Source of the DNA: Nitrospirota bacterium
Lineage (GTDB): Bacteria; Nitrospirota; Nitrospiria; Nitrospirales; UBA8639
Assembly: GCA_003695915.1 (NCBI GenBank)
Contig: RFGF01000099.1
Span: 1 to 64,000 of the forward strand
DNA: 64,000 nt
Reading direction: 5' to 3'
Each line of letters opens with the position of its first letter. Position 1 is the stretch's first letter. The translations under genes were made by a program, and so were the position numbers. This document shows positions 39,717 to 55,869 of the stretch, piece after piece. The notes beneath the pieces are model-generated. The model was not told the DNA's origin, searched no databases, and saw only the letters and a program-made list of their open reading frames with translations.

Positions 39717-40622
39717 TCACTTCACGAGTCCCTTGAAAATCGGCGCCCGCAATTTGCCCCCGGCCGTTTTTTCCATGAAATGGACACGGCACCGGAGATC
39801 AGTCTTACGCCATTGTGCGCGTTTCGGACCGTCTGCTGGCGGAGAAGGCAGGGGTGGCTTCGACATCAATTGTTCGAATAGGCGATGGCGATCCTCCTCC
39901 GTAAACCCACTCCCCACCCGCCCTCGATACATCCATGTCCCCTGCTTATCTTCACCCAGCAGCAGGGCGCTGATGGCCGGTTCGTGCTCCCGTTGCAGAA
40001 AGCCGATGATGGCAAATTCTTGGATCTGCCCGACTTTGACCTTTTTCCAGTACGAAGAGCGACACCCCACGAGATAGGGGCTGTCGATCTGCTTGGCCAT
40101 CATTCCTTCGAACCCCGCATGTCGGATTTCAGAAAAAAAGCGCGTTCCGTGCTCCAAAACGCCTTCGGAGAACACCAGCGTCGGGCTCGCATAGCGCTGG
40201 ACCATGTCGTGAAGCCGATCGCGACGTTCCAACAGCGGACGATCGAGCAAGGGACGGTCGTTGAGATACAAGAGATCGAACGCCATAAAAGTGGCGGGAT
40301 GAAGCTGAGCCAAGAATGCCGCGCGCGTGGAACTTCGTGTCTGAACCCGCTCTTGGAGTCTGGGAAAGGACGGTTTCCCCTCGATCAAGACGATGAGTTC
40401 CCCATCGAGCACCGAATTTTCAGGGAGATTTTGGAGGCTTCGTAATTCGGGAAACACCGGCGCCATGTCCACGAATCGCCGGTTCTCCAGCCGGATGCGC
40501 CCATGTTCGATGAACGCGAGGCAGCGCGTGCCGTCCCACTTGATTTCAAAGAGATGGTGAGGAGAATCGAAAGGCTCCCGCGCCAATTGAGCGAGCATAG
40601 GACTGATGTGGCGCGGCAGCAC
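39717..40622 (-). CDS. ligD: LigD-type ATP-dependent DNA ligase domain protein
   Basis: 301 residues from a GTG at 40622 with AGAGGG upstream. It is the ligase domain alone: nucleotidyl motif I 'EIKWDGTR' with Lys28, motif III 'FMAFDLLYLN', motif IV 'GFEGMMAKQ', motif V 'YWKKVKVG', and an OB-fold end 'FMEKTAGGKLRAPIFKGL'. Length matches the LigD ligase region with no polymerase or phosphoesterase domain. It seals breaks bridged by Ku, whose gene lies nine bases upstream. Confidence 0.92.
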   Translation of the reverse strand: MLPRHISPMLAQLAREPFDSPHHLFEIKWDGTRCLAFIEHGRIRLENRRFVDMAPVFPELRSLQNLPENSVLDGELIVLIEGKPSFPRLQERVQTRSSTRAAFLAQLHPATFMAFDLLYLNDRPLLDRPLLERRDRLHDMVQRYASPTLVFSEGVLEHGTRFFSEIRHAGFEGMMAKQIDSPYLVGCRSSYWKKVKVGQIQEFAIIGFLQREHEPAISALLLGEDKQGTWMYRGRVGSGFTEEDRHRLFEQLMSKPPLPSPPADGPKRAQWRKTDLRCRVHFMEKTAGGKLRAPIFKGLVK

Positions 40623-40631
40623 GCATCCCTC

Positions 40632-41468
40632 TTATGCGCTCTTTCCTCGTTTGAATTTTCGGACGGGCGCAAGTGATTTGACAGGCTGACTCTTTTTCGT
40701 TTGAGCAACACTGGCTTTGAGGGCGTCCATGAAATTGATCACCTTTCTCACCTCGGCCTCGTGCACCGTGACAGGCGCGACGCCTTTGATTTTGGCTCGA
40801 ATCAATTCGATGAGCGCGTGCTCATAGCGGTCTGTAAACTTCGACGGATCAAAAGGGGCGATCTTGCTCTTCACCAACATCCGAGCCAGTTCCAGTTGCT
40901 CTTTGTCAACCCTGCCGTTTTGAATGTCAGCAAAGAACGGCGTGGCCTTGCTGATTTCATTGGCGTAGCGCAGGGTCAGCATGACCATCCCTTTATCCTG
41001 CGCCTTGATCGCCACAAGGTGCTCGCGCCCTTTCATGACCACCTGCCCGATCGCCATGACCCCCTCTTGCCCCATCGCCTCGCGGATCACGCGAAAAGCT
41101 TGATCGGCAACGGGTCCATCCGGGGCGAGATAATGGGGAGCCTCGATGTATAGCGGATCGAGTTCATGGGCATAGATGAATTGCACGACGTCGATAGTCT
41201 TCGTGGTTTCGAGCTTGAGATGGTCCAATTCGACCTCGTCGAGAACTACGTATTTCCCTTTTTCGTATTCGTACCCCTTCTCGACGTCTTCTTGCTCGAC
41301 GGGACCATGGATCGGGCACGTCAACTGATGATGTATGCGCTGGTGGCACCCTTTATGAAGCTGATGAAGGACAATGCGACCGGCGCTGCTGGTGGCCGAA
41401 TAGAGCCTGACGGGGATCGTGACGAGCGAAAGTTTCAGATTGCCTTTCCATGTAGCACGAGGCGGCAT
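40632..41468 (-). CDS. ku: Ku, non-homologous end-joining DNA-binding protein
   Basis: 278 residues from the ATG at 41468, which begins 'MPPRATWKGNLKLSLVTIPV' like other bacterial Ku; the frame is open 13 codons further. 'LHQLHKGCHQRI' and 'YEYEKGKYVVLDEVELDHL' are family hallmarks, and a Lys-rich C-terminus ('VRKFKRGKSA') is typical. Ku encircles DNA ends as a homodimer and recruits LigD. First gene of the operon ku-ligD-pcm. Confidence 0.94.
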   Translation of the reverse strand: MPPRATWKGNLKLSLVTIPVRLYSATSSAGRIVLHQLHKGCHQRIHHQLTCPIHGPVEQEDVEKGYEYEKGKYVVLDEVELDHLKLETTKTIDVVQFIYAHELDPLYIEAPHYLAPDGPVADQAFRVIREAMGQEGVMAIGQVVMKGREHLVAIKAQDKGMVMLTLRYANEISKATPFFADIQNGRVDKEQLELARMLVKSKIAPFDPSKFTDRYEHALIELIRAKIKGVAPVTVHEAEVRKVINFMDALKASVAQTKKSQPVKSLAPVRKFKRGKSA

Positions 41469-41748
41469 GAGTGGCTCGCTCCAGACATGCGGAGATATCT
41501 TACTCAATGGTAAGCAATGAGAGCGTGAAACTCAAACGCTCTGACCTCATGACCTCTCTCACACCTGACCTGAAAGAGCCCATAAACAAGATAAGACTGC
41601 GGTGCATCGGCACTGCCCTCATCCCGTGATCGTGGTGCGCGTTTTCCTGGCAGATGGAGACAGCTTTTACGCTTTTGTTGTCTAAGTGTCATGCGTTCTT
41701 TTACAATAAATTAGCGAATCCAATCGTCGACTCCAAAAGAGCTTTTTC

Positions 41749-42066: not shown

Positions 42067-42096
42067 TTGATTCACTGAAAAATCGGGTGTTACGAT
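42067..42096 (+). promoter_or_regulatory. candidate sigma-70 promoter for the nuo operon
   Basis: TTGATT (42067-42072) and TACGAT (42091-42096) are separated by 18 bases, each with four of six consensus bases. Transcription would begin near 42103, about 38 bases before the nuoA ATG. Plausible position, moderate match. Confidence 0.35.
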
Positions 42097-42140
42097 GCCT
42101 TCCCTGCAGAAGTCATAAGTTTTTGTCAGTGAGAGAAGTA

Positions 42141-42524
42141 ATGAGCGGCGTCGATCTTCTCGTTGAATATCTTGCTCGATATTCTTCGATTCTCATTTTT
42201 ATTCTCTTAGCGTTTGGCTTCGGAGTCGTGACTCTTCTTCTGTCGTATTTGGTTCAACCTAAATACCCGGAACCGGAAAAATTGTCGCCGTACGAGTGCG
42301 GAAGCGAACCGTTCTCGGATTCGCGCATCCCGTTCCCGGTCCGTTATTATGTGATCGCCATGCTGTTCGTGATCTTCGATATTGAAGTGATCTTCTTGTA
42401 TCCATGGGCCGTGACCTTCAAACAGTTGGGATTGATCGGCTTTATCGAAATGATGATTTTCATCGGCCTGTTCGTCGTGGCCTATGTGTATGCATGGCGG
42501 AAAGGCGCACTCGAGTGGGATTAA
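42141..42524 (+). CDS. nuoA: NADH-quinone oxidoreductase subunit A
   Basis: 127 residues from ATG 42141, with GAGAGAAG upstream; the earlier in-frame start is not supported. Three transmembrane helices; conserved 'YPEPEKLSPYECGSEPF' loop and 'IPFPVRYYVIAMLFVIFDIE' with the acidic residue of TM2. NuoA is a small membrane subunit at the joint of the two arms. First gene of the complex I operon. Confidence 0.95.
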   Translation: MSGVDLLVEYLARYSSILIFILLAFGFGVVTLLLSYLVQPKYPEPEKLSPYECGSEPFSDSRIPFPVRYYVIAMLFVIFDIEVIFLYPWAVTFKQLGLIGFIEMMIFIGLFVVAYVYAWRKGALEWD

Positions 42525-42558
42525 CGATGGGCGTGGGACGAGCCCCATACCTCATTTG

Positions 42559-42582
42559 TTCAATCCGATGTTCAATCCGATG
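42559..42582. repeat. 12-bp tandem direct repeat (two copies)
   Basis: TTCAATCCGATG occurs twice in a row between nuoA and nuoB, followed by a partial third copy (TTC). Non-coding; likely replication slippage. Confidence 0.85.
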
Positions 42583-42602
42583 TTCGTGAGAATTCGGTCG
42601 CC

Positions 42603-43127
42603 ATGGGATTGATTCAGATCGGCAAGCACGACAAAGACGGCGAGGTGGGGGTCATGACCTTGTCGTTAGAAAAAGCGGTCAACTGGGCTCGAAAAGGCTC
42701 GTTGTGGCCCATGACCTTCGGGCTCGCATGTTGCGCGATCGAGATGATCGCGGCCGTGTCGGCTCGGTACGATATCGATCGTTACGGGGCCGGCGTATTT
42801 CGAGCTTCTCCCCGTCAGTCCGATCTCATGATCGTGGCTGGGACGGTGTGCCGGCGCATGGCCCCCGTCATTCGTAAGATCTATGATCAGATGCCTGAGC
42901 CGAAATATGTCATCGCCATGGGGTCCTGTGCGACATCGGGCAATATCTATGACAGTTACAGTGTTGTGCAGGGTGTGGATCGCTTCGTCCCCGTCGATAT
43001 TTACGTACCCGGCTGTCCGCCGACCCCCGAAGCACTGTTCGACGGAATTTTGAAATTGCAAGACCGGATCATGCAAAAGCGAGTCTTTACGAAACAACCC
43101 GAACAGGTCAAAGGACACGTGGGATGA
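42603..43127 (+). CDS. nuoB: NADH-quinone oxidoreductase subunit B
   Basis: 174 residues. The ligands of the terminal N2 [4Fe-4S] cluster are all present: Cys43-Cys44 ('GLACCAIEM'), Cys109 ('MGSCATSG') and Cys138 ('[10 protein letters not shown]'). N2 passes electrons to the quinone. Its stop overlaps the nuoC start (ATGA). Confidence 0.97.
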
Positions 43128-43720
43128 GCGACAACATCGACACGCCATCGACTCAGGAGCAACCACCCTCTTCGGCGCAAGAGGCGGAAACCAATGAAAA
43201 AGCACCCGCTGCGCCGCCTTCCCTGATATTCTTGGCTGACCGAATTCGGGAAAAGTTTCCTGAAGCCGTGATCGCAGCCAAGGAATGGCGGGGAGATTTA
43301 GCGGTAACCGTCACTCGTGAGGCGCTCCATGCTATCTGTCGATTCCTTCGCGACGATCCGGAGATGGATTTCGATTACATTGTCCATGTCAGCTCTGTCG
43401 ATTGGCCCGATGAGCCGGAACGCTTCGAAGTCGTGTATGAAGTGTATTCCATTCGGAAGCGGCACCGGATTCGCATCAAAACACGCGTGCCCGAACATGA
43501 TTGCATTGTCGATTCGATGACGGACATCTGGCGAGGGGCCGAATTCATGGAGCGTGAGGTGTTCGACATGATGGGCATTCGGTTTCGGAACCATCCCGAT
43601 TTGCGGCGTATCCTGATGCCCGACGATTACACGGAAGGCTATCCGCTTCGCAAGGACTTTCCCTTGCAAGGCAAGGGTTGGCGGGATACGTTTGAATTTT
43701 TGAACGATCCCGCGAACTAA
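43124..43720 (+). CDS. nuoC: NADH-quinone oxidoreductase subunit C
   Basis: 198 residues, separate from NuoD rather than fused as in E. coli. '[20 protein letters not shown]', then '[20 protein letters not shown]' and '[20 protein letters not shown]' are the subunit C signature. An extra acidic, Glu/Ser/Pro-rich N-terminus of about 30 residues precedes the domain. Overlaps nuoB by ATGA. Confidence 0.96.
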
Positions 43721-43780
43721 TCACTGGATGTCCATAGTGTCGAAACATGGGTTGGCATAGAAAGTGAGTTAAGGAATACC

Positions 43781-45028
43781 ATGGCGCACCTCGAAGACCA
43801 GCGCAGCACCGTCTATCACGTGGATCCGTCGCATCCCGAGACGGACACGCTTCCGACGCTCCGCACCGAAGAGTTGCTGCTGAACATGGGACCACAGCAC
43901 CCCAGCACGCACGGCGTGCTCAAGGTGATCCTCGAGCTGGAAGGCGAACGGATCGTGAAATCGACGCCGGTGATGGGCTTTCTCCATCGCGGTGTGGAAA
44001 AACTCGCGGAACACGGAACCTATCATCAGTTCATTCCTCATACCGACCGCTTGGACTACGTCTGCGCCATGTACAACAATTTTGCTTACTGCCGGGCGGT
44101 GGAAAAGCTGATGGGCATCACGGTGCCCGATCGGGCGGAATACCTGCGAACGATCGTGGCAGAAGTTCAACGCATTATCGGACACCTGTTCTGGCTGGGC
44201 ACCCAGGCGCTGGACATCGGGGCCATGACGGTCTTTTTCTATACGTTCCGTGATCGGGAAATCCTGCTGGATTGGTTCGACGAACTGTGCGGGGCACGGC
44301 TCACGACGAGCTGGTATCGCATCGGAGGCGTAGAGCGAGATTTCACGCCAGAATTGGAACAAAAAATTCGTAAATTTCTGGATTATTTTCCCCCGAAAAT
44401 CGACGAATACGTCGTCTTTTTGGAACGCAACCGGATCTGGCTGGCCCGCACGAAGGGCGTGGCGGTCATTTCTGCGGAAGATGCCCTAAGCTTCGGGCTG
44501 AGCGGACCCACGTTACGGGGCTCCGGCGTCGATTACGATTTACGCAAGTACGAGTCGTACGGCGCTTACCCGCGCTGCGAATTCAGCGTGCCGGTCGGAA
44601 AAAACGGCGATACCTATGATCGATACTGGATCCGGATCGAGGAGATGCGTGAAAGTATCAAGATTATCCGGCAATGCATGGATCAAATGGAGCCGGGGCC
44701 GATTATGGCGGATGTCCCAAGTGTCACCTTGCCGCCGAAAGAGCGGGTCTTTACGAATCTGGAATCCATGATTCAGCAATTTAAGCTCTTTTCCCAAGGC
44801 TTCGATGCCCCAGTGGGAGAAATTTATTGCGGGACGGAAGCCCATAAAGGCGAGCTGGGCTTCTATATCGTCAGCACGGGCGGAGGGCGCCCCTATCGAT
44901 TGAAGATTCGGGCGCCGTCGTTCATTCATATGGGAGCGTTTGATCATATGGCTCGGGGGTATATGATCGCCGACGCGATTACGATCTTCGGCACATATGA
45001 TATTGTTATGGGAGAATGCGATCGATAA
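43781..45028 (+). CDS. nuoD: NADH-quinone oxidoreductase subunit D
   Basis: 415 residues, AAGGAAT upstream. 'NMGPQHPSTHGVLKVILELE' near the start contains the quinone-pocket His; 'LHRGVEKLAEH', 'DRLDYVCAMYNN' and the closing 'FGTYDIVMGECDR' are typical. It forms the quinone-binding site with NuoB. It is 60 bases after nuoC. Confidence 0.97.
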   Translation: MAHLEDQRSTVYHVDPSHPETDTLPTLRTEELLLNMGPQHPSTHGVLKVILELEGERIVKSTPVMGFLHRGVEKLAEHGTYHQFIPHTDRLDYVCAMYNNFAYCRAVEKLMGITVPDRAEYLRTIVAEVQRIIGHLFWLGTQALDIGAMTVFFYTFRDREILLDWFDELCGARLTTSWYRIGGVERDFTPELEQKIRKFLDYFPPKIDEYVVFLERNRIWLARTKGVAVISAEDALSFGLSGPTLRGSGVDYDLRKYESYGAYPRCEFSVPVGKNGDTYDRYWIRIEEMRESIKIIRQCMDQMEPGPIMADVPSVTLPPKERVFTNLESMIQQFKLFSQGFDAPVGEIYCGTEAHKGELGFYIVSTGGGRPYRLKIRAPSFIHMGAFDHMARGYMIADAITIFGTYDIVMGECDR

Positions 45029-45081
45029 CCCGGGGCTGGCAATCGAGAGCACGGCCAGCATGCCGGATAAGGAGCAGATAA

Positions 45082-47781
45082 ATGGCGTTAAAACCAGTCA
45101 CCACTCCTGATGCGGAAGCCGCCACCATCGAGTTGACGTTGGACGGGAAGACTGTGACCGCCAAGGAAGGCGTGTCGCTTTACGACGTCATCGCTAGCAC
45201 AGGAAAAATCGTGCCAGCGATGTGCTACCACTATACCTTCGATCCCTTCGGGTCCTGTGGCATGTGTCTGGTTATGCAGGAAGGCAAAAAAGCACCGGTT
45301 CGATCCTGCACAGCAAAAGCCACTGCGGGGATGGTGATCCGCACCGAAGGCGAAGATTTGTTCTTGGCGAGAAAAAAAGCCGTTGAAAAACATCTGTCCG
45401 TCCATCCACTGGATTGTCCCGTGTGTGATGCGGACGGACATTGTGAATTACAGGACACCGCCTTTCAGCACGGCGTCACCAACCTGGCCAACGCCAAGCA
45501 AAAGAACATTCCTGAAGATACGCGAAGCCTGGTGTTGGACTTCAACATGAACCGATGTATCGCTTGCGGCGAATGCATCAATATTTGTAAAGACGTGCAG
45601 CGCATCGATGCCCTGCAATTCATCAAGAAAGGTGGGTTCACCCAAGTGGTCGCCAAAGGCGATCAACCCTTAGTGTGCGAATTCTGTGGCGATTGCCTGG
45701 CCGTGTGTCCGGTGGGAGCCATTACGAATAAGTTCTCGAAATATGCCTACAAACCATGGCAATTGCGCAAAACGACGACGACCTGCAATTACTGCGGCGA
45801 CGGCTGCCAGATGTATCTCGAAACCAAAGATACGGACGTCATCCGGGTGACCTCTCCGTTGTCCTGGAAAAACAAATGGGGCGATCGCGCGGATACGGTC
45901 AACGGTCATGGGGGACTGTGCGTGCGAGGGCGATTCGGATTTCAATTTATCGATAGCCCTGCCCGACTGACACAGCCGCTGGTTCGCACGGACACCGGCC
46001 TGATCGAAGCCCCATGGATCGATGCCATGGATCTCGCTGCCGGGCGCCTAGCCTATGTCAAAGCTCAATATGGAGCCCAAGCCATCGCCGGGCTGATCAC
46101 GGCCCGCTGCACCAACGAAGACCTGTATGTCTTTCAACGCTTCATGCGAGCCGTCATCGGAACGAATCATCTCGACAGCAGTGCCAGGTATGGGCACATG
46201 AACTTCGTCCGAGCCATGCATCGAGCACTGGGGATCGGCCGGATGATGAATACCTCTGCCGAAATTACGAAAGCCAACGCTATTTTGCTTGTGGGGTCCA
46301 ATATTACGGAAACGAATCCCGTCGCCAGCCTCCGTGTCAAAGCGGCGATCGGCACCTACAAAGCCCAAGTGATCGTCGTGGACGAAGCCCCCACCAACAT
46401 CGCCAAATTGGCTTCTCATCCCCTTTTGGTCAAACCTGGAACGGAAGGGCTGTTCGTTCAAGGCATGGTGAAATCCATTGTCGAACAGGATCTCATCGAC
46501 GAAGAAGCGGTCCACGCGCACCCGCAAGCTTTTGCCGCCTTACAAAAGGCGGTCGAAAAAATTTCCTTCACCGATATTTCGACCCAAACGGGCATTCCCG
46601 TGGATCAGATCCACGAAGTCGCCCGGATTTTTGCCGAAGCTCCTCGATCCGTCATCCTGTGCGGCGAAGGGCTGACGCGTCAACCAGGCGGTTATCACCA
46701 TATGTTGACGCTCTTTGATTTGGCGTGGGTGACAGGGAAATTGCGCCAGCCCGGCTGCGGGATCAATGCCTATATCGAAGAAGCGAACGAACAGGGCGCC
46801 GTCGACATGGGGGTGGCTCCCGAATTTCTTCCTGGACTTCTGCGTTTTGACGATCCGGCTGCACGGGAAAAATGGTCGCGCGTGTGGGGCGCAGACCTCC
46901 CTCCCAGCGGACAAGGCGCCCATCTGATGGACATCCTCGAACGGTGTCGGTCCGGCGAAATCAAAGCCCTGTACCTCGTAGGGGAAAATCCGCTGGCCAC
47001 ATTGCCGGCCTCCGCCAACGTCGAGGCCGCTTTGAGGAATCTGGAGGTGCTCATTTGTCAGGATCCGTTTTTAACCGACACCGGAAGAATGGCACATGTC
47101 GTCTTTCCTGCCGCCACATTCGCGGAAAAAGACGGGACCATGACCAATCAGGAAGGGAAGGTTCAATTCGTGCGGCCCGCGTTGGATCCACCAGGAGAAA
47201 GCGCACTCGATTGGCATATTATGGCTGGCCTGGCTGATGCGCTCGGGTCTCCGATGCCGTATGAAACCACTCAGGATATTCAGAACGAAATTCGACGGGA
47301 ATTGCCGACCTACTACAATTTGGGCCGTCCCAAAAAGGTCGAAGCACGTCCCGATGCGTATCTTGCCTCCCAGTATTGCGAGGAGGTCGACCAGCGTTAT
47401 ACGCCCGTGACGCTCCCGAGCGAAAACCGGCCATTCCGATTGCGTCTTATCCAGCTCTTGTATCATTCTGGAAAATTATCCACGCGAGCATCGGGGCTCA
47501 TGGCCATCTCTCCGAACACTAAGCGACTCCATCTCCACCGAGAGGACCTGGAACGATTGGGCATTCACCAGGGGGGGCGCGTGCGTTTAATCACCGATCA
47601 GGGAAGCGTGGATCTCGAGGTGGAAGAAGATCTCTCCGTGATGCCGGGCTCCTGCACGTTTCCCGAACATTTCACCGAGCCACCCCTCAAAGACCTCGTT
47701 TCTGTGCAACTCGATCCGATCACTGGGGTGCCGTATTTTAAATTGACCGGCGTCACGCTCGAGCCGATTGCCTCGACATGA
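45082..47781 (+). CDS. nuoG: NADH-quinone oxidoreductase subunit G
   Basis: 899 residues, AAGGAG upstream. N-terminal [2Fe-2S] Cys48, 59, 62, 76; His-ligated cluster His108, Cys112, 115, 121; then two full CxxCxxCxxxC motifs at Cys159-169 and Cys199-209; then an N7-like site Cys235, 238, 242 and 280. A molybdopterin-oxidoreductase-like domain fills the rest (about 285-890). Two complete ferredoxin motifs are more than the usual NuoG set and resemble formate dehydrogenase or [FeFe]-hydrogenase subunits. NuoE and NuoF, its normal electron donors, are not encoded here. nuoI follows directly, with no nuoH between. Confidence 0.93.
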   Translation: MALKPVTTPDAEAATIELTLDGKTVTAKEGVSLYDVIASTGKIVPAMCYHYTFDPFGSCGMCLVMQEGKKAPVRSCTAKATAGMVIRTEGEDLFLARKKAVEKHLSVHPLDCPVCDADGHCELQDTAFQHGVTNLANAKQKNIPEDTRSLVLDFNMNRCIACGECINICKDVQRIDALQFIKKGGFTQVVAKGDQPLVCEFCGDCLAVCPVGAITNKFSKYAYKPWQLRKTTTTCNYCGDGCQMYLETKDTDVIRVTSPLSWKNKWGDRADTVNGHGGLCVRGRFGFQFIDSPARLTQPLVRTDTGLIEAPWIDAMDLAAGRLAYVKAQYGAQAIAGLITARCTNEDLYVFQRFMRAVIGTNHLDSSARYGHMNFVRAMHRALGIGRMMNTSAEITKANAILLVGSNITETNPVASLRVKAAIGTYKAQVIVVDEAPTNIAKLASHPLLVKPGTEGLFVQGMVKSIVEQDLIDEEAVHAHPQAFAALQKAVEKISFTDISTQTGIPVDQIHEVARIFAEAPRSVILCGEGLTRQPGGYHHMLTLFDLAWVTGKLRQPGCGINAYIEEANEQGAVDMGVAPEFLPGLLRFDDPAAREKWSRVWGADLPPSGQGAHLMDILERCRSGEIKALYLVGENPLATLPASANVEAALRNLEVLICQDPFLTDTGRMAHVVFPAATFAEKDGTMTNQEGKVQFVRPALDPPGESALDWHIMAGLADALGSPMPYETTQDIQNEIRRELPTYYNLGRPKKVEARPDAYLASQYCEEVDQRYTPVTLPSENRPFRLRLIQLLYHSGKLSTRASGLMAISPNTKRLHLHREDLERLGIHQGGRVRLITDQGSVDLEVEEDLSVMPGSCTFPEHFTEPPLKDLVSVQLDPITGVPYFKLTGVTLEPIAST

Positions 47782-47794
47782 AGTGAGAAGAACC

Positions 47795-48367
47795 ATGCCA
47801 ACGACGTCCTCTCCAGCGAAAAAATTATTCGACACGGTTTTGTTCCGAGAAATTTGGGAGGCCATGAAAGTGACCTTCCGCCACATGTTTCATCGTCCCA
47901 TGACATTTGAGTATCCACGGGAAAAACGGACGATTCCCGATACCCATCGGGGAGCCTTGGCGTTGCTTCGCTACGACGACGGTCAAGAACGGTGCGTCGG
48001 ATGCGACCTCTGCGAGGCTGCATGCCCGTCGCATTGCATCAAGGTTATCAGCGAAGAAGACAAAACCCGACCGCTTCAACGCTATGCCAAGGAATTCTAT
48101 ATCGACATTACCAAGTGTGTCTTTTGCGGGTATTGCGTGGAAGCATGCCCTGTGAATGCCTTGGCCATGACCAAGCTCTACGAGTACTCGACCCCGGATA
48201 AACGCACGCTGCTTTTCGATAAAGCGCGGCTCTATGAAATTGGCGAACGGTATTTAGAGGATGGGAAACGCTATTTGTACGCACATAACCAAGAAAAAGA
48301 AGGCGAAGAGAGCCGCGCGTATCGCTATCAATTTCCTGTTCCCGTCCAAAAAACGCCGAACGCCTGA
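47795..48367 (+). CDS. nuoI: NADH-quinone oxidoreductase subunit I
   Basis: 190 residues from the ATG at 47795, 13 bases after nuoG; the open frame begins 27 bases earlier inside nuoG. Two ferredoxin motifs: Cys67, 70, 73, 77 and Cys108, 111, 114, 118, binding N6a and N6b. It passes electrons from the peripheral arm to NuoB. Normally nuoH precedes it; here it does not. Confidence 0.95.
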   Translation: MPTTSSPAKKLFDTVLFREIWEAMKVTFRHMFHRPMTFEYPREKRTIPDTHRGALALLRYDDGQERCVGCDLCEAACPSHCIKVISEEDKTRPLQRYAKEFYIDITKCVFCGYCVEACPVNALAMTKLYEYSTPDKRTLLFDKARLYEIGERYLEDGKRYLYAHNQEKEGEESRAYRYQFPVPVQKTPNA

Positions 48368-48377
48368 TTCAACCACC

Positions 48378-48899
48378 ATGGTATGGCTTTTGTTTGGTTA
48401 CTTCGCTGCGGTGAGCATTGTCGCCGGCGTGCTCACAGTAACCTTGCGCAATCCCGTGCATTGCGCACTCGCCTTGCTGACCGTTCTCCTGCATGTCGCT
48501 GGCCTGTTCGTGCTCCTGAATGCGGAATTTCTGTTCGCCGTCCAAATCATCGTCTATGCCGGAGCCATTCTCGTTCTGTATTTGTTTGTGCTCATGTTGC
48601 TCAACTTGAAATCTGAAGAACAGTATTTCCATCGCCATTACCTGTTTCTCGTCTTTGCCGGCATCGGCATCTTAGGCGAACTCCTGCTGCTGCTCTGGCA
48701 GTCGCCGTATCGGGGAGTTCGAGGAACGGCATCCCCGAAAGTCGTCCTGGAAACGGGTCCGAGCCATGCAGTCGGACTCACGATGTTTAGCGATTATTTG
48801 TTGTTATTTGAGATCGTGGGCGTATTTCTGCTTGGAGCCATTATCGGCGCCATTGTGTTGGCCAAAACACCCACAGCCGCCGACGTCAAAGCCGAGTAA
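48378..48899 (+). CDS. nuoJ: NADH-quinone oxidoreductase subunit J
   Basis: 173 residues from the ATG at 48378, ten bases after nuoI; the open frame overlaps nuoI. Five transmembrane helices, with the conserved 'EFLFAVQIIVYAGAILVLYL' of TM3, which holds the pi-bulge involved in proton transfer. Short C-terminus ending 'PTAADVKAE'. Confidence 0.94.
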   Translation: MVWLLFGYFAAVSIVAGVLTVTLRNPVHCALALLTVLLHVAGLFVLLNAEFLFAVQIIVYAGAILVLYLFVLMLLNLKSEEQYFHRHYLFLVFAGIGILGELLLLLWQSPYRGVRGTASPKVVLETGPSHAVGLTMFSDYLLLFEIVGVFLLGAIIGAIVLAKTPTAADVKAE

Positions 48900-48905
48900 T
48901 ATTCG

Positions 48906-49226
48906 ATGGATGCCCCAACATCCATGATTCCATTGGCCGCCTATGTCACGGTCAGCGCAATTTTGTTCATGACTGGATTGGTCGGCGTCCTCGTGCGACG
49001 CAACTTCATCATCGTGCTGATGTGCGTTGAGATCATGTTGAATGCCGCCAATATCAATTTAGTGGCGTTTTCGCATTATTTGGAATCCATGGCCGGTCAA
49101 TTAGCGGCGCTGTTTGTAATCGCCATCGCTGCCGGAGAAGCTGCGGTTGGACTGGCGATCATCATCGTCGTCTTCCGAACAAAAATTGCGACCAATGTGG
49201 ATCAGATCAACATTCTGAAGTGGTAA
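48906..49226 (+). CDS. nuoK: NADH-quinone oxidoreductase subunit K
   Basis: 106 residues, three transmembrane helices. 'RRNFIIVLMCVEIMLNAANI' holds the conserved Glu of TM2, and a second Glu lies in 'AAGEAAVGLAI' of TM3. Both are part of the central proton path. Six bases after nuoJ. Confidence 0.96.
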   Translation: MDAPTSMIPLAAYVTVSAILFMTGLVGVLVRRNFIIVLMCVEIMLNAANINLVAFSHYLESMAGQLAALFVIAIAAGEAAVGLAIIIVVFRTKIATNVDQINILKW

Positions 49227-49227
49227 C

Positions 49228-51225
49228 GTGTTCGAGCTGCTCGTTCTTCTGATTCCCCTGTTCCCGCTCCTCGCCGTCTTGGTCAATGGCCTGTTCGGGC
49301 ATCGCTATTCTCACGAGGTGGCCGCTCGACTGGCATATGGCTCCGTGTTCCTCTCGTTTCTTTGCGCGCTAGCCGTAGCGGCCGACGTCGTCGCCGACCC
49401 TCAGCCGCGCGAAGTTGTCGCGTATTCCTGGATTTTTGGCGGCGATCTGTCGATCGATCTTGCCTTCCTGATCGATCCTCTGACCACTGTCATGTTGCTA
49501 GTCGTCACGGGCGTGGGCTTCCTCATTCACGTGTACTCGGTAGGATACATGCACGGGGAAGAGGGATTCACACGGTTCTTTACCTATATGAATCTGTTCA
49601 TGGTCTCCATGTTGCTCTTGGTCATGGGCAACAATTATGCGGTGCTTTTCATCGGCTGGGAGGGGGTGGGACTGTGTTCGTATCTCTTGATCGGGTACTA
49701 CTACGATAAAGTGTCGGCAGCCAAAGCGGCGACCAAAGCCTTCGTCATGAATCGTATCGGCGATGCCGGATTTCTCTTGGCGATCTTTTTGATTTTTTCT
49801 CACTTCCGTACCTTGGATTACACCACGGTGCTAGCACAAGCTTCGGAGCTTTCCACCGGCATGGCCACGGCGATCGCGCTGTGTTTGCTGGTGGGCGCGG
49901 TCGGCAAATCGGCGCAATTGCCACTCTATACGTGGTTGCCGGATGCCATGGAGGGCCCAACGCCTGTCAGCGCATTGATTCACGCGGCGACCATGGTCAC
50001 GGCTGGCGTCTACATGGTCGTTCGCAATCATGCAATCTACGATCTCGCCCCGATAGCCATGACGGCCGTGGGCATTATCGGCGGGACAACGGCCCTCTTT
50101 GCTGCCACCATCGGCCTCGTGCAAAACGACATCAAACGGGTCTTAGCGTATTCCACGGTCAGCCAACTCGGGTACATGTTTCTCGCCTGTGGGGTCGGGG
50201 CCTATATCGCCGCGATTTTTCACTTAGTGACCCATGCGTTTTTCAAAGCGCTCTTGTTTTTGGCGGCCGGCTCGGTCATTCACGCGCTGGGTGGAGAACA
50301 AGATATTCGCAAAATGGGGGGGCTGCGCCAGAAAATTCCGATTACGTATGCCGTTTTTATGATCGGAACGATCGCCATTGCTGGCATTCCGCCGCTTGCG
50401 GGATTCTGGAGCAAAGACGAAATTCTCGCCCATGCCTTTGTGCAGCATCATTATGGGTTATACCTTCTGGGAGCGATCGGCGCTGTGCTGACCAGTTTTT
50501 ATATGTTTCGTCTGACCTTTTTGACGTTTTATGGACCATCCCGCGTCGATCCACATGTGGCACACCATATCCATGAATCACCGAAGGTGATGACCGTTCC
50601 CTTGATGATCCTGGCCGCGTTATCGATCGTAGGTGGTTTTCTTGGCGTCCCTCCTGAACACGGTCTCTTACACAGCTTTTTGCATCCGGTGGCTGCCTCG
50701 GCTGGTGGGGCAGCTCATGAATCCAGCACCGGCCTAGTGGTTGGCCTCGCGACCTTTGCGACCCTCACCGCGTTCGCGGGCCTCGGTTTGGCCTATTATC
50801 TATATGTGGTTCGTCCGCACATGGCGGACGAATGGGCGCGTCGGACCTCTGGACTCTATACGCTCCTCCTCAACAAATATTATGTCGATGAATTCTATGA
50901 CCGGATCGCGGTGGAGCCCTGCAAACGATTGGGGGACATGTGGGATTGGGCAGATCGTCATATCATCGATCGAGTCGTTCAAGGCATCAACCACATGACG
51001 GACAAAGGGGCGGCTGCGGCCACTTGGATCGAAAAACATATTATTTATGGCGGGTTGAACATCATCGGCTATGCCAACCATCTCGCGGCATGGTCCTGGC
51101 GGAAACTGCAAAGCGGTATGGTCCATCATTATGCGACCATCATCGTGATCGGCTTAGCGGTGCTTGTCCACTTGCTTCTGTTCTGGTTGACAGGAGCCAC
51201 GCCCGGTAGTTACGCCATGCGGTGA
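49228..51225 (+). CDS. nuoL: NADH-quinone oxidoreductase subunit L (extended)
   Basis: 665 residues, starting at a GTG one base after nuoK. Key pump residues are Glu145 ('GWEGVGLCSYLLIG'), Lys227 ('AVGKSAQLPLYTWLP') and His252 ('ALIHAATMVTAGVY'). The C-terminal lateral helix region ('NKYYVDEFYDRIAVEPCKRL' onward, about 545-640) is longer than in E. coli NuoL (613 residues in total) and contains an extra amphipathic stretch around 'YGGLNIIGYANHLAAWSW'. A longer lateral helix would be needed to span two NuoM subunits. Confidence 0.95.
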   Translation: MFELLVLLIPLFPLLAVLVNGLFGHRYSHEVAARLAYGSVFLSFLCALAVAADVVADPQPREVVAYSWIFGGDLSIDLAFLIDPLTTVMLLVVTGVGFLIHVYSVGYMHGEEGFTRFFTYMNLFMVSMLLLVMGNNYAVLFIGWEGVGLCSYLLIGYYYDKVSAAKAATKAFVMNRIGDAGFLLAIFLIFSHFRTLDYTTVLAQASELSTGMATAIALCLLVGAVGKSAQLPLYTWLPDAMEGPTPVSALIHAATMVTAGVYMVVRNHAIYDLAPIAMTAVGIIGGTTALFAATIGLVQNDIKRVLAYSTVSQLGYMFLACGVGAYIAAIFHLVTHAFFKALLFLAAGSVIHALGGEQDIRKMGGLRQKIPITYAVFMIGTIAIAGIPPLAGFWSKDEILAHAFVQHHYGLYLLGAIGAVLTSFYMFRLTFLTFYGPSRVDPHVAHHIHESPKVMTVPLMILAALSIVGGFLGVPPEHGLLHSFLHPVAASAGGAAHESSTGLVVGLATFATLTAFAGLGLAYYLYVVRPHMADEWARRTSGLYTLLLNKYYVDEFYDRIAVEPCKRLGDMWDWADRHIIDRVVQGINHMTDKGAAAATWIEKHIIYGGLNIIGYANHLAAWSWRKLQSGMVHHYATIIVIGLAVLVHLLLFWLTGATPGSYAMR

Positions 51226-51230
51226 CGACA

Positions 51231-52784
51231 ATGCTCGAAGAAATTGAATTCGGGTTCCCCCTGCTCACGTTTCTGATTTTTTTCCCGCTCGTTGGGGCAG
51301 CGGCCTTGTGGGCCGTGAAGGACGAAGCGTCTATCAAACAGGCGGCCTTAGCGATTGCGGGCATCGAGTTGGTCGCCGCCATCGTGGTGCTCTTGGGCTT
51401 CGTGCCCGGAACAGCAGCCATGCAGTTTGTCGAGCATGCCCGTTGGTTTCCTCAATTGGGAATCGGATATCACCTGGCCGTGGACGGCATCAGTGTGTTG
51501 TTCATGGGTCTCACAGCCTTCCTGACGGTGTTGTTGGTCTTGTATGCCTGGGATACGGTTCACCTGCGACCCAAAGCCTTTTACATGAGCGTGTTGGGGC
51601 TCGAAGCCACGGTCATGGGCATCTTCTTGTCCATCGATTTGATCCTCTTTTTCGTCTTTTGGGAATTGATGCTGATCCCGAGTTACTTCTTGATCAAGTT
51701 GTGGGGAACCGGGTCGGAACGAGAATACGCGGCCTTAAAATATGTCTTGTACACACTGTTGGGAAGCGTCTTCATGTTGGTAGGCTTCGCGCTGTTGAGC
51801 CTCAATTACCACGAGGTCAAGCAGGCGTATAGCTTCGATCTTCTCGAGCTCTTGTCGGTCCCGGTTCCTTTCGATCAACAAGTGTTGATCTTTTGGCTGA
51901 TCTTTTTAGGATTAGCCTTCAAGGCGCCAATTTTTCCTTTTCATTCGTGGTTGCCCGATGCACTGGTTCAAGGCCCGATTCCCATGTCCGTGATGCTGGC
52001 GGGCATCAAAATGGGCACCTATGGGTTTCTCCGGTTCAGCTTTCCCCTGCTCCCTGAAGCTTCGCGAAATCCTTCTATCGTCACAATAGTAATGATCTTG
52101 GGACTGGCCGCGATCATCTACGGAGCACTGATCGCCATCGTGCAAGCGGATTTCCGTCGACTCTTGGTCTTCAGCAGCATCAGCCATTTGGGTTTCGTGG
52201 TGATCGGCCTGTTTGCCTTGAATGTCCAAGGGATTCAGGGCAGCCTGATTCATATGATCAACCTGGGCTTTAGCACCGCAGGACTCTTTTTCTTCGCTGG
52301 CTTTTTGTACGAACGACTCGGCCACATCGACGTTCGACAATCCAGCGGGCTGGCCAAAAAACTTCCACTTCTGGCAACGCTCTTTCTGATCCTCGGGATG
52401 GCGTCCATTGGCTTGCCGGGGACGAATGGATTCATCGGTGAGTTTCTCATCCTCATGGGCGCATTTCAGGCCCATTGGATATACGGGGCTATCGCGGTGA
52501 CTGGCGTCATCTTTGCCTCCGCCTACTTTCTTTGGTATTACGAGCGTGCCATCTTTGGTCCTTTGAAAGCCGGGCTCCCGGCCGCGCTCAGAGACCTCAC
52601 ACCCCGTGAATGGGCGATTGGGATCTCGTTATCGGTGATGATTTTTTGGATTGGGATTTATCCCTCTCCCTTTTTGCGAATGATCAACGGGTCGGTCCAG
52701 GCAGTCGTGGAACGGCTTGATCGCGGGAGCCTGGCAACCCCTACGGTTGACCACCCGCTCATCTCACGCTGGGTACAGGATTGA
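51231..52784 (+). CDS. nuoM: NADH-quinone oxidoreductase subunit M, first copy (canonical)
   Basis: 517 residues from the ATG at 51231 (a GTG at 51222 overlapping the nuoL stop is the alternative). All pump residues are present: Glu145 ('FWELMLIPSYFLIKLWG'), Lys231 ('AFKAPIFPFHSWLP'), Lys260 ('LAGIKMGTYGFLRFS') and a Glu late in 'GTNGFIGEFLIL'. This is the ordinary NuoM. Confidence 0.95.
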   Translation: MLEEIEFGFPLLTFLIFFPLVGAAALWAVKDEASIKQAALAIAGIELVAAIVVLLGFVPGTAAMQFVEHARWFPQLGIGYHLAVDGISVLFMGLTAFLTVLLVLYAWDTVHLRPKAFYMSVLGLEATVMGIFLSIDLILFFVFWELMLIPSYFLIKLWGTGSEREYAALKYVLYTLLGSVFMLVGFALLSLNYHEVKQAYSFDLLELLSVPVPFDQQVLIFWLIFLGLAFKAPIFPFHSWLPDALVQGPIPMSVMLAGIKMGTYGFLRFSFPLLPEASRNPSIVTIVMILGLAAIIYGALIAIVQADFRRLLVFSSISHLGFVVIGLFALNVQGIQGSLIHMINLGFSTAGLFFFAGFLYERLGHIDVRQSSGLAKKLPLLATLFLILGMASIGLPGTNGFIGEFLILMGAFQAHWIYGAIAVTGVIFASAYFLWYYERAIFGPLKAGLPAALRDLTPREWAIGISLSVMIFWIGIYPSPFLRMINGSVQAVVERLDRGSLATPTVDHPLISRWVQD

Positions 52785-52789
52785 ATGCC

Positions 52790-54385
52790 ATGAGCGAGTA
52801 CGCGCTTCTTATCATTTTGTTCGCTCCGTTTTTAGGAGCCGTAGCGCTAATCTTTGTGCCTCGACGCGAGGCCTTGCTCACCCGGCTCGTGGCTGCGACA
52901 TCATCTGGCATTTGCCTGCTGGCTTCCTTGTATATTTTCTTTGCCTATGACATCGAGCGGGGCGGGTTCCAATTTGTCCAACGCTTTCCCTGGTCGGAGG
53001 AATTGGGGATCGCCTTTTATCTAGGGGTTGATGGTATCGGGGGACCTTTGGTCCTGGCTTCTGCCATCTTGTTGTTCGCCGGGGTGTTCGTCTCCTGGCA
53101 TATCCAGGACCGGACCAAAGAATTTTATATCTTCCTGCTCATTTTGGCGGCGGCGACCATCGGCGTCTTCATGTCGCTCGATCTCTTCTTTTTATATTTC
53201 TTTTACGAGATGTCAGTCTTGCCGATGTACCTCTTGCTGGGCATCTGGGGAAGTCACACGAAAGGCTATCTCTCGATGACGGATCCGGAGGGGCGGCGGT
53301 TGCGGGATTCGGTCGGCTTCATTTTTAACTTCGGCTCCAACAGCAAAGAGTACGCGGCCATGAAGCTCACGTTGTTTCTCTCCGCGGGCGCCGTCGTGGC
53401 ACTCATGGGCATCTTACTGATTTACCATTTTTCTGGGCTTCATACCTTCGATATCTTGGTCCTCCGCGAGCAAGCTCATTTTTCCGGCACGCTCGCCACG
53501 ATCATTTGGCTCTTGATCTTTTTCGGCTTCGCCTCCATTGCGCCGATTTGGCCGTTGCACTCCTGGTCGCCTGTGGGCCATGCAGCCGCACCAGCAGCGA
53601 CCAGTATGCTGCATGCCGGCGTGCTCATGAAGTTAGGCCATTTCTCTATCATCCGTGTGGGCTACGAAATTCTACCGGAGACGACGAGGGATCTGATTCC
53701 CATCGCAGCGATTTTGTGCGTATTCAGCATCATTTATGGTGGGCTGGTCTCGTATTTCGCCAAGGATACGAAGTATGTCATCGGCTACTCGAGTTCCAGC
53801 CACATGGGCTATATTTTCCTAGGAATGGCGGCACTCGATTACATCAGCCTGACCGGGGCGGTTATCTACATGTTCGCGCATGCGCTTGCCACGGGCATGC
53901 TCTTCGCTATGGCAGGCTGGGTCTACGATCAAACCCACACTCGTGACATTCCCTCCTTAGGGGGACTTGTGGAACGCATGCCGTTTTTGGCCGGCGCGTT
54001 TATCGTCGCCTGCATGGCCTCCATCGGAATGCCAGGCACGGTGAACTTTATCGCTGAAGTCATGATCATCGTCGGAAGCTGGCAGAAATACCCATTTCAA
54101 GTCATTGTGGCCGTGCTGGGAATCGTGTTGACGATGGCGTATTTGTTCCGCATGATGCGTGGCCTGTTTTATGGACGATTGGTTCCGGAGTATGCACACG
54201 TCCAGGATACGCACGCCTTCGTCGATCGGATGCCGTTGTTGTTGATGATCTTTTGCAGCATCAGTTTAGGAATTTTTCCAGGCCATTTTTACGAAGTGGT
54301 CCGCTCGACCGTCGTACCGATGCTCGACCGCATTAACCAAGTCGCGCCGTTGTTGACCCAGACGAGTACCAGCTTCCTACCATGA
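52790..54385 (+). CDS. nuoM2: NADH-quinone oxidoreductase subunit M, second copy (divergent)
   Basis: 531 residues from the ATG at 52790, five bases after nuoM1 (an in-frame TTG overlaps that stop). Glu140 ('FFYEMSVLPMYLLLGIWG') and Lys281 ('GVLMKLGHFSIIR') are kept, and 'GTVNFIAEVMII' keeps the late Glu. The TM7 lysine is missing: 'GFASIAPIWPLHSW' has Ile250 where NuoM1 has Lys231. There is also an insertion of about 25 residues at 155-185, between helices 4 and 5. Tandem NuoM copies define the '2M' type of complex I. Confidence 0.94.
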   Translation: MSEYALLIILFAPFLGAVALIFVPRREALLTRLVAATSSGICLLASLYIFFAYDIERGGFQFVQRFPWSEELGIAFYLGVDGIGGPLVLASAILLFAGVFVSWHIQDRTKEFYIFLLILAAATIGVFMSLDLFFLYFFYEMSVLPMYLLLGIWGSHTKGYLSMTDPEGRRLRDSVGFIFNFGSNSKEYAAMKLTLFLSAGAVVALMGILLIYHFSGLHTFDILVLREQAHFSGTLATIIWLLIFFGFASIAPIWPLHSWSPVGHAAAPAATSMLHAGVLMKLGHFSIIRVGYEILPETTRDLIPIAAILCVFSIIYGGLVSYFAKDTKYVIGYSSSSHMGYIFLGMAALDYISLTGAVIYMFAHALATGMLFAMAGWVYDQTHTRDIPSLGGLVERMPFLAGAFIVACMASIGMPGTVNFIAEVMIIVGSWQKYPFQVIVAVLGIVLTMAYLFRMMRGLFYGRLVPEYAHVQDTHAFVDRMPLLLMIFCSISLGIFPGHFYEVVRSTVVPMLDRINQVAPLLTQTSTSFLP

Positions 54386-55869
54386 CGTTCGATCTCGCGC
54401 TGACCGGTTCAGACCTCCTTTTGCTCCTTCCGGAAATTCTCCTGACGCTGTGGCTGTGTCTGATGGTATGCCTCGATTTTTCCATGCGAAAGATCACGCA
54501 TCAGAATCTGGCTTACCTCGGCATCGGCGGGGTGCTCGCCACCCTGGTCGTCCTGATCTGGTTCGATCTAACCGGTATCACCGGCACCCTCTTCAAAAAC
54601 ATGTTCGTGCTCGACCGGTTGGCAATCTTCTTTAAGATTTTTATCCTGCTGGCCACGGCACTCGTGATGTGTAGTTCCATCGATTCCGTTCGAACATTTC
54701 GCTTTTTCAAAGGCGAATACTACTTTTTAGTGCTCATGTCGACCTTGGGCATGATGTTCATGGCTTCGGCCGGCGATTTGCTGTCGGTCTTTGTAACGGT
54801 GGAGTTTTCCACATTCGGCTTTTATGTCCTCGTGGCCTATTTGCGGGACGATCTGCGATCCAGCGAAGCCGGGTTGAAATTTTTCATCCTCGGTGTGTTC
54901 GCGGCCGGCTTACTGGCGTACGGAATCAGCTTGGTGTACGGCGAGACGGGGACGTTGATTTTTTCCGACATAGCGGGGACTTCGGGTAGCTACGGGATGA
55001 CCATCGGCTTTTTGCTGATTTTCGCCGCGCTAGGATTCAAAATCGGAGCCGTTCCTTTTCATTCGTGGATCCCCGACACCTATCAAGGAGCGCCTACACC
55101 TGTCACCGCTTTTCTCTCGATCGCCCCAAAAGGTGCGGCCATCGCTATCTTGATCCGTATGTTTTACGTGGCGCTGGCGTCGTTCAAGCCTATGTGGGTG
55201 CTGTTATTTATTGCCGGCTCCATTCTTTCGATGACCTACGGGAACATCGTGGCGATCGCGCAAAAAAACATCAAACGGCTGTTGGCATATTCCGGAATCG
55301 CGCAAATCGGCAATGTCTTGATCGGCCTGGCGGCGGGCACCAAACAAGGTAGCGATGCTATCTTGTTTTATCTCCTGACCTACCTTTTCGCAAATCTCGG
55401 GGCTTTTGCCGTGGTCATCGGCGTCAGCCATATCATCAAAAGCGACGAGATCGAGGACTACAGCGGGCTCAATCGGCGCTCGCCGTTCTTGGCTGCGTCT
55501 ATGCTGTTGTTTCTGCTCTCGTTGGCCGGAGTGCCGCCACTAGCCGGGTTTATCGGCAAGCTCTATTTGTTTGTGGCCGCGATCGATCAAGAGCTGTACA
55601 CGCTTCTGATTTTTGGTCTGATCAATATCATCATTTCCATGTACTATTATTTGATCGTAGTCAAGAAGATGTACATCAACGAACCGCTCGACCCCAGTCC
55701 CCTGACGGTATCGATCCCCCTGAAAACCGTCGTGTACGTCGGCATCGCGGGAACTCTTCTCTTGGGCATCTATCCCAAGCCTTTCATCGATTGGGCTGTC
55801 TCGGCCACGCTGATGTTCTCGAACATCGCGGGTCCGACAGCGGCTGCCGGGTCGATATTCGGGGGCTGA
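54382..55869 (+). CDS. nuoN: NADH-quinone oxidoreductase subunit N
   Basis: 495 residues, start overlapping the nuoM2 stop (ATGA). Glu in 'TVEFSTFGFYVLVAYLRDD', Lys in 'LGFKIGAVPFHSWIPDTYQG' and a second Lys in 'AFLSIAPKGAAIAILIR' are the pump residues. Last gene of the cluster. A short GC stem (GGGGC-TGA-GCCCC) lies at the stop codon, with TTTT about ten bases later, a weak terminator candidate. Confidence 0.96.
   Translation: MTFDLALTGSDLLLLLPEILLTLWLCLMVCLDFSMRKITHQNLAYLGIGGVLATLVVLIWFDLTGITGTLFKNMFVLDRLAIFFKIFILLATALVMCSSIDSVRTFRFFKGEYYFLVLMSTLGMMFMASAGDLLSVFVTVEFSTFGFYVLVAYLRDDLRSSEAGLKFFILGVFAAGLLAYGISLVYGETGTLIFSDIAGTSGSYGMTIGFLLIFAALGFKIGAVPFHSWIPDTYQGAPTPVTAFLSIAPKGAAIAILIRMFYVALASFKPMWVLLFIAGSILSMTYGNIVAIAQKNIKRLLAYSGIAQIGNVLIGLAAGTKQGSDAILFYLLTYLFANLGAFAVVIGVSHIIKSDEIEDYSGLNRRSPFLAASMLLFLLSLAGVPPLAGFIGKLYLFVAAIDQELYTLLIFGLINIIISMYYYLIVVKKMYINEPLDPSPLTVSIPLKTVVYVGIAGTLLLGIYPKPFIDWAVSATLMFSNIAGPTAAAGSIFGG

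Follow-up and report, generated by a model that had tools for sequence, protein, structure and literature searches.

The 2M complexes of nitrite oxidisers are believed to power the reduction of ferredoxin for CO2 fixation, and their higher proton stoichiometry is a hypothesis in the literature too. In the current models of complex I pumping that were consulted, the ion pair of the TM5 glutamate and the TM7 lysine is the switch. The 2M complexes were reportedly defined by Chadwick et al. 2018; the Nitrospira 2M complex I of that work is cited in PMC6606698 and PMC9040806, and in the 2M complex I of N. moscoviensis the genes nuoE, nuoF and nuoH are absent from the cluster (PMC6606698). The Complex_I_3 type has two MrpD-like subunits together with two NuoM (compare PMC9040806). 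The TM7 lysine has been called "absolutely conserved, essential for activity" (PMC7419157), and mutants that lack it, in NuoM of E. coli as in Nqo13 of Paracoccus, were catalytically dead (PMC3046159, PMC9802314), while in Paracoccus the stoichiometry was unchanged in all functional Nqo13 variants (PMC9802314).

Gene cluster and 2M identity

The window, that is, the whole stretch of 64,000 nucleotides of Nitrospirota contig RFGF01000099.1 (order Nitrospirales) that was analysed, holds a complex I cluster at about positions 42087-55869 with the gene order nuoA-B-C-D-G-I-J-K-L-M1-M2-N, from which nuoE, nuoF and nuoH are missing. The last four genes, nuoL (49228..51225), nuoM1 (51222..52784), nuoM2 (52781..54385) and nuoN (54382..55869), and all codons and segments described below lie on the plus strand; nuoM2 opens with TTG at 52781, and its start is probably the ATG at 52790. 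The product of nuoM2 scored 410.6 bits against TIGR01972 (NuoM), for which the curated cut-off is 263.8. This second NuoM gene stands beside those for NuoL and NuoN. In an alignment with E. coli NuoL, the NuoL of the window showed an insertion of 26 residues in the lateral amphipathic helix (HL), which is typical of 2M complexes; in the class-level relative G202, the NuoL belonging to the single-M complex does not have it. The cluster is the Nitrospira 2M complex I: it shares with the complex described by Chadwick et al. 2018, as reflected in the papers that cite it, the order nuoL-M1-M2-N, the long NuoL with the HL insertion and the lack of NuoE, NuoF and NuoH genes in the cluster, and against that description no difference was found at the locus itself.

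The genome has only one NuoH gene (G000:C98:27358-28344); it sits on contig C98, close to the other genes for complex I. As the cluster has no nuoH, the 2M complex must share this single NuoH, which contributes to the quinone site, or do without it. Just upstream of the nuo cluster, the window also carries adjacent genes for Ku and an ATP-dependent DNA ligase on the minus strand (39717-41507), which form a bacterial end-joining pair.

Residues and loop that set NuoM2 apart

The first-pass annotation had reported the TM7 lysine of NuoM1 as K231 in 'AFKAPIFPFHSW' (P0002) and an isoleucine at the equivalent site of NuoM2, in 'GFASIAPIWPLHSW' (P0003), and both were borne out. The isoleucine (codon 53537..53539; residue 250 from ATG 52790 and 253 from TTG 52781) faced K234 of E. 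coli NuoM in a pairwise alignment, a position at which NuoL and NuoN also have lysine. The TM5 glutamate and the TM8 lysine are retained, as had been claimed, as E143 (53207..53209) and K284 (53630..53632) in P0003 numbering, corresponding to E. coli E144 and K265, and the counterpart of the TM12 glutamate E407 of E. coli is retained as E426 (54056..54058). His267 (53579..53581), equivalent to E. coli H248 and to the proton-uptake histidine H246 of Paracoccus, is kept in NuoM2 and lost in NuoM1. The E. coli axis residues E144, H241, H248, H322, K265, H348 and E407 were all kept in Nitrospirales NuoM2. Among the residues expected of a canonical pump, the TM5 Glu, the TM8 Lys and the TM12 Lys/Glu are present and the TM7 lysine that partners the TM5 glutamate is the one missing.

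The site was isoleucine in 98/98 sequences of the Nitrospirales alignment, and in 133/133 NuoM2 once class-level relatives were added, which rules out a sequencing error or an oddity of one genome. The codon varied only synonymously among the 133 NuoM2 (ATC in 101, ATT in 31). The first-pass annotation had named a lysine or arginine in the same spatial position as one observation that would overturn its claim; none was seen in the immediate neighbourhood of the site, where positions 247-263 were invariant or conservatively varied in the 98-sequence alignment.

The loss is accompanied by a histidine in TM8. His278 (codon 53612..53614) stands at the position of NuoL H254 and was found in every lysine-less NuoM aligned (138/138 rows, namely 133 with Ile and 5 with Leu, the G202 protein being counted twice), compared with 1/184 lysine-bearing rows. 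The single exception was a NuoM of Paenibacillus with both the lysine and the histidine, indicating that the histidine does not imply the absence of the lysine. A histidine adjoining the TM8 lysine is otherwise the arrangement of MrpA (H273; PMC7419157), and NuoM2, judged by its sequence, combines an MrpA-like TM8 (His + Lys) with a NuoM body. The association of the TM7 loss with the TM8 histidine counts as only one event in the tree described below; it suggests compensation, and shared ancestry could explain it instead.

The loop insertion noted in the first-pass annotation is also present, but it was placed there between TM4 and TM5 at about 25 residues, and it was found here to follow immediately on the E143 helix, in the loop that joins TM5 to TM6, and to measure 27-28 residues; the earlier observation on NuoM2 is thus confirmed in part. 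From loop length and the structural model, the insertion covers approximately residues 158-186 (53252..53338). The segment W156-K195 encloses 38 residues in most NuoM2 and 10-11 in other NuoM. In the AlphaFold model of NuoM2, TM5 spans residues 135-157, a low-confidence coil follows at 158-188, and TM6 spans 189-218; the model is of moderate confidence (mean pLDDT 69.9, falling under 50 near E143 and at the insertion) and was used for helix boundaries and fold only. Its best match in the PDB was the NuoM of Paracoccus complex I (8qby_M), with a TM-score of 0.83. E. coli NuoM K173, which is located at the cytoplasmic surface (PMC3046159), comes just after the insertion, and the insertion can therefore be assigned to the cytoplasmic side.

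Nor can NuoM1 be taken as an ordinary, unaltered partner of NuoM2: it is abnormal as well, which, like the TM8 histidine of NuoM2, had escaped the first-pass annotation. In 122/122 NuoM1 of Nitrospirales-type 2M complexes, the counterpart of E. coli H248 was Leu or Met and that of H348 was Leu, and in the same 122/122 sequences two residues were missing between E. coli H241 and K265. The NuoM1 of the window agrees with this, with Leu at both histidine positions and two residues gone before the TM8 lysine. In Paracoccus, changing H246 (equivalent to E. coli H248) to Phe abolished catalysis (PMC9802314). Complex_I_3-type relatives showed the reverse pattern, with a canonical NuoM1 and with Tyr at H248 and Asp at H348 in NuoM2, while both NuoM of the relative L126 were intact at the two sites. 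Every complex examined contained at least one NuoM with both histidines; the pattern amounts to two events, one per paralogue, and is suggestive only.

Origin of the lysine-less NuoM lineage

In the class-level relative G202, a second complex I was found beside the 2M-type one (L156:6190-18891). This NADH-type operon has the order NuoD-E-F-G-H-I-J-K-L-M-N and a NuoL without the lateral-helix insertion, and its single NuoM (P0006) has Leu at the TM7 site and no TM5-TM6 insertion. Records of Prevotella nigrescens, Phocaeicola massiliensis and Bacteroides finegoldii likewise showed a single NuoM with Leu at this site, and in the lysine-less single NuoMs of both Bacteroidota and G202 the TM5-TM6 loop is 10 residues long.

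A maximum-likelihood NuoM tree was built without the columns of TM7, the TM8 histidine and the insertion, from a sample that, beyond Nitrospirota, consisted of plasmid records and E. coli. All lysine-less NuoM grouped in a single clade (SH-aLRT 98), the state changing once on the tree; the lysine-less NuoM of G202 was sister to NuoM2 (99), and NuoM1 was placed in another clade. In AU tests, a single clade of NuoM1 and NuoM2 was rejected (p 4.3e-5), which excludes a recent duplication of NuoM1 as the source of NuoM2, and a position of the Bacteroidota NuoM among the lysine type was rejected as well (p 0.0097). Taken together, the tree and the AU tests indicate that NuoM2 was not copied from NuoM1 but came from a lineage that had already lost the lysine, with the insertion arising later. 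We propose a lysine-less NuoM clade, whose members share common descent, a residue other than lysine in TM7 and the TM8 histidine; it is an old lineage, in which the loss of the TM7 lysine predates the 2M complex.

Viral contigs were scanned for the motif 'HAGVLMKLG' and with the lysine-less alignment, and gave no lead. A text search of the literature found no earlier report of the missing NuoM lysine, a weak negative as most subscription papers fall outside such a search. In addition, MrpD2-like subunits of green-type complex I, in Pararhizobium (L196:2262-4022) and in Nitrospirota relatives (L127-L132, L134, L141, L166, L175, L181 and L183), had Asn at the TM7 lysine site and retained the TM8 and TM12 lysines, indicating a second, independent loss of the TM7 lysine, and so at least two losses in the antiporter-like subunits of complex I.

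Function of NuoM2 and comparison with known systems

The doubt raised in the first-pass annotation, whether the second NuoM really pumps a proton, is partly supported. The missing lysine normally pairs with the TM5 glutamate, and the dead published mutants show that its loss bears on the canonical mechanism. It does not follow that NuoM2 pumps no proton, since relatives exist in which this type is the sole NuoM, the TM8 histidine is constant, and the mutants are wholly dead. That the lysine-less state is fixed and constrained in sole NuoMs argues for a rebuilt switch, which in its simplest form would consist of the TM5 glutamate and the TM8 His/Lys pair. Going by the sequence comparisons, we somewhat favour the reading that NuoM2 uses a different proton switch, built from the TM5 Glu together with the His and Lys of TM8, and is a working relay module from the lysine-less lineage. 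The TM7 lysine was lost once in an old NuoM lineage whose members carry the TM8 histidine that is elsewhere a mark of NuoL and MrpA, and the TM5 glutamate would be tuned by the TM8 histidine and lysine in place of the TM7 lysine. Cytoplasmic links follow TM8 (PMC7419157), and both proton entry from the cytoplasm and the lateral relay may run along TM8 to the TM12 glutamate. The module would then have been imported into the Nitrospira 2M complex I, and the TM5-TM6 insertion may have been acquired with this move, perhaps for gating proton entry or contacting a neighbour. In the literature searched, no demonstrated activity of any lysine-less NuoM was found, and for the NUO of Bacteroides fragilis no NADH:quinone activity was shown and the deletion mutant was no less fit in the mouse (PMC7002350).

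NuoM2 could instead hold the longer arm and pass charge along the axis as a spacer or conductor that ejects no proton of its own, so that the 2M complex pumps four protons and not five. The residue that carries the switch in canonical models is gone, neither Nitrospirales NuoM has the full canonical set, the NuoM2 of the Complex_I_3 type has lost H248 (Tyr) and H348 (Asp) in addition, and in the model with an exit through NuoL alone an additional antiporter-like subunit can do without its own exit path (PMC10212512). This is nevertheless less likely, given the invariance of the TM5 Glu, TM8 Lys, TM12 Glu and, in Nitrospirales, all bridging histidines, and given that the lysine-less type is the only NuoM of other complexes; moreover, the known lysine mutants lose the whole reaction and not one proton, so a bare loss should give a dead enzyme and not a four-proton one. 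That NuoM2 is degenerating, with a lysine lost under relaxed constraint and the loss tolerated while NuoM1 works, is very improbable and largely refuted: each complex does have two NuoM, one of which has lost H248/H348 in nearly every lineage, but NuoM2 hardly varies from TM7 to TM8, its Ile codon changes only synonymously, the loss is older than the second NuoM, and in Nitrospirales NuoM1 is the more altered of the two.

A replacement of the lysine from outside, in which a Lys or Arg from the insertion or from an adjacent subunit reaches the TM5 glutamate, is also improbable. Basic residues are well conserved in the insertion (K161 in 129/133 and R175 in 128/133 NuoM2), directly after the TM5 helix, but the insertion lies on the cytoplasmic surface whereas the glutamate is in the middle of the membrane, and the absence of the insertion from the lysine-less single NuoMs of Bacteroidota and G202 rules it out as the substitute.

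As a more tentative proposal, which we hold to be possible and somewhat short of probable, the whole lysine-less branch of NuoM would run the proton relay of complex I with the TM8 His + Lys pair as its switch, and Nitrospira would have joined both NuoM types in one enzyme, each complementing the canonical residues missing from the other. The state of NuoM2 bears directly on whether the 2M complexes of nitrite oxidisers move a fifth proton, and the large natural lysine-less group, which includes sole-NuoM complexes, offers a ready-made test of pumping models, with the TM8 histidine as the candidate replacement.

Compared with canonical NuoM/ND4/Nqo13 (E. coli, Paracoccus, Thermus), NuoM2 has the same fold, TM5 Glu, TM8 Lys, TM12 Glu and bridging histidines, but lacks the TM7 lysine, has the extra TM8 histidine and the TM5-TM6 insertion, and reads 'SP.GHAAAP' after TM7 where these proteins read 'LPDAH..AP'. 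With MrpA and NuoL (ND5) it shares a TM8 histidine at the equivalent position (E. coli NuoL H254; MrpA H273, PMC7419157), whereas these proteins retain the TM7 lysine and NuoM2 has a TM12 glutamate and no lateral helix. The NuoM of the 11-subunit NUO of Bacteroidota (Prevotella, Bacteroides, Phocaeicola) likewise has no TM7 lysine, carries the TM8 His + Lys and belongs to the same clade, but it is the sole NuoM of its complex, has no TM5-TM6 insertion and has Leu where NuoM2 has Ile. To the description of the Nitrospira 2M complex I in the citing papers, the present analysis adds the loss of the TM7 lysine and the TM8 histidine in NuoM2, the lineage from which NuoM2 came, and the alterations of NuoM1.
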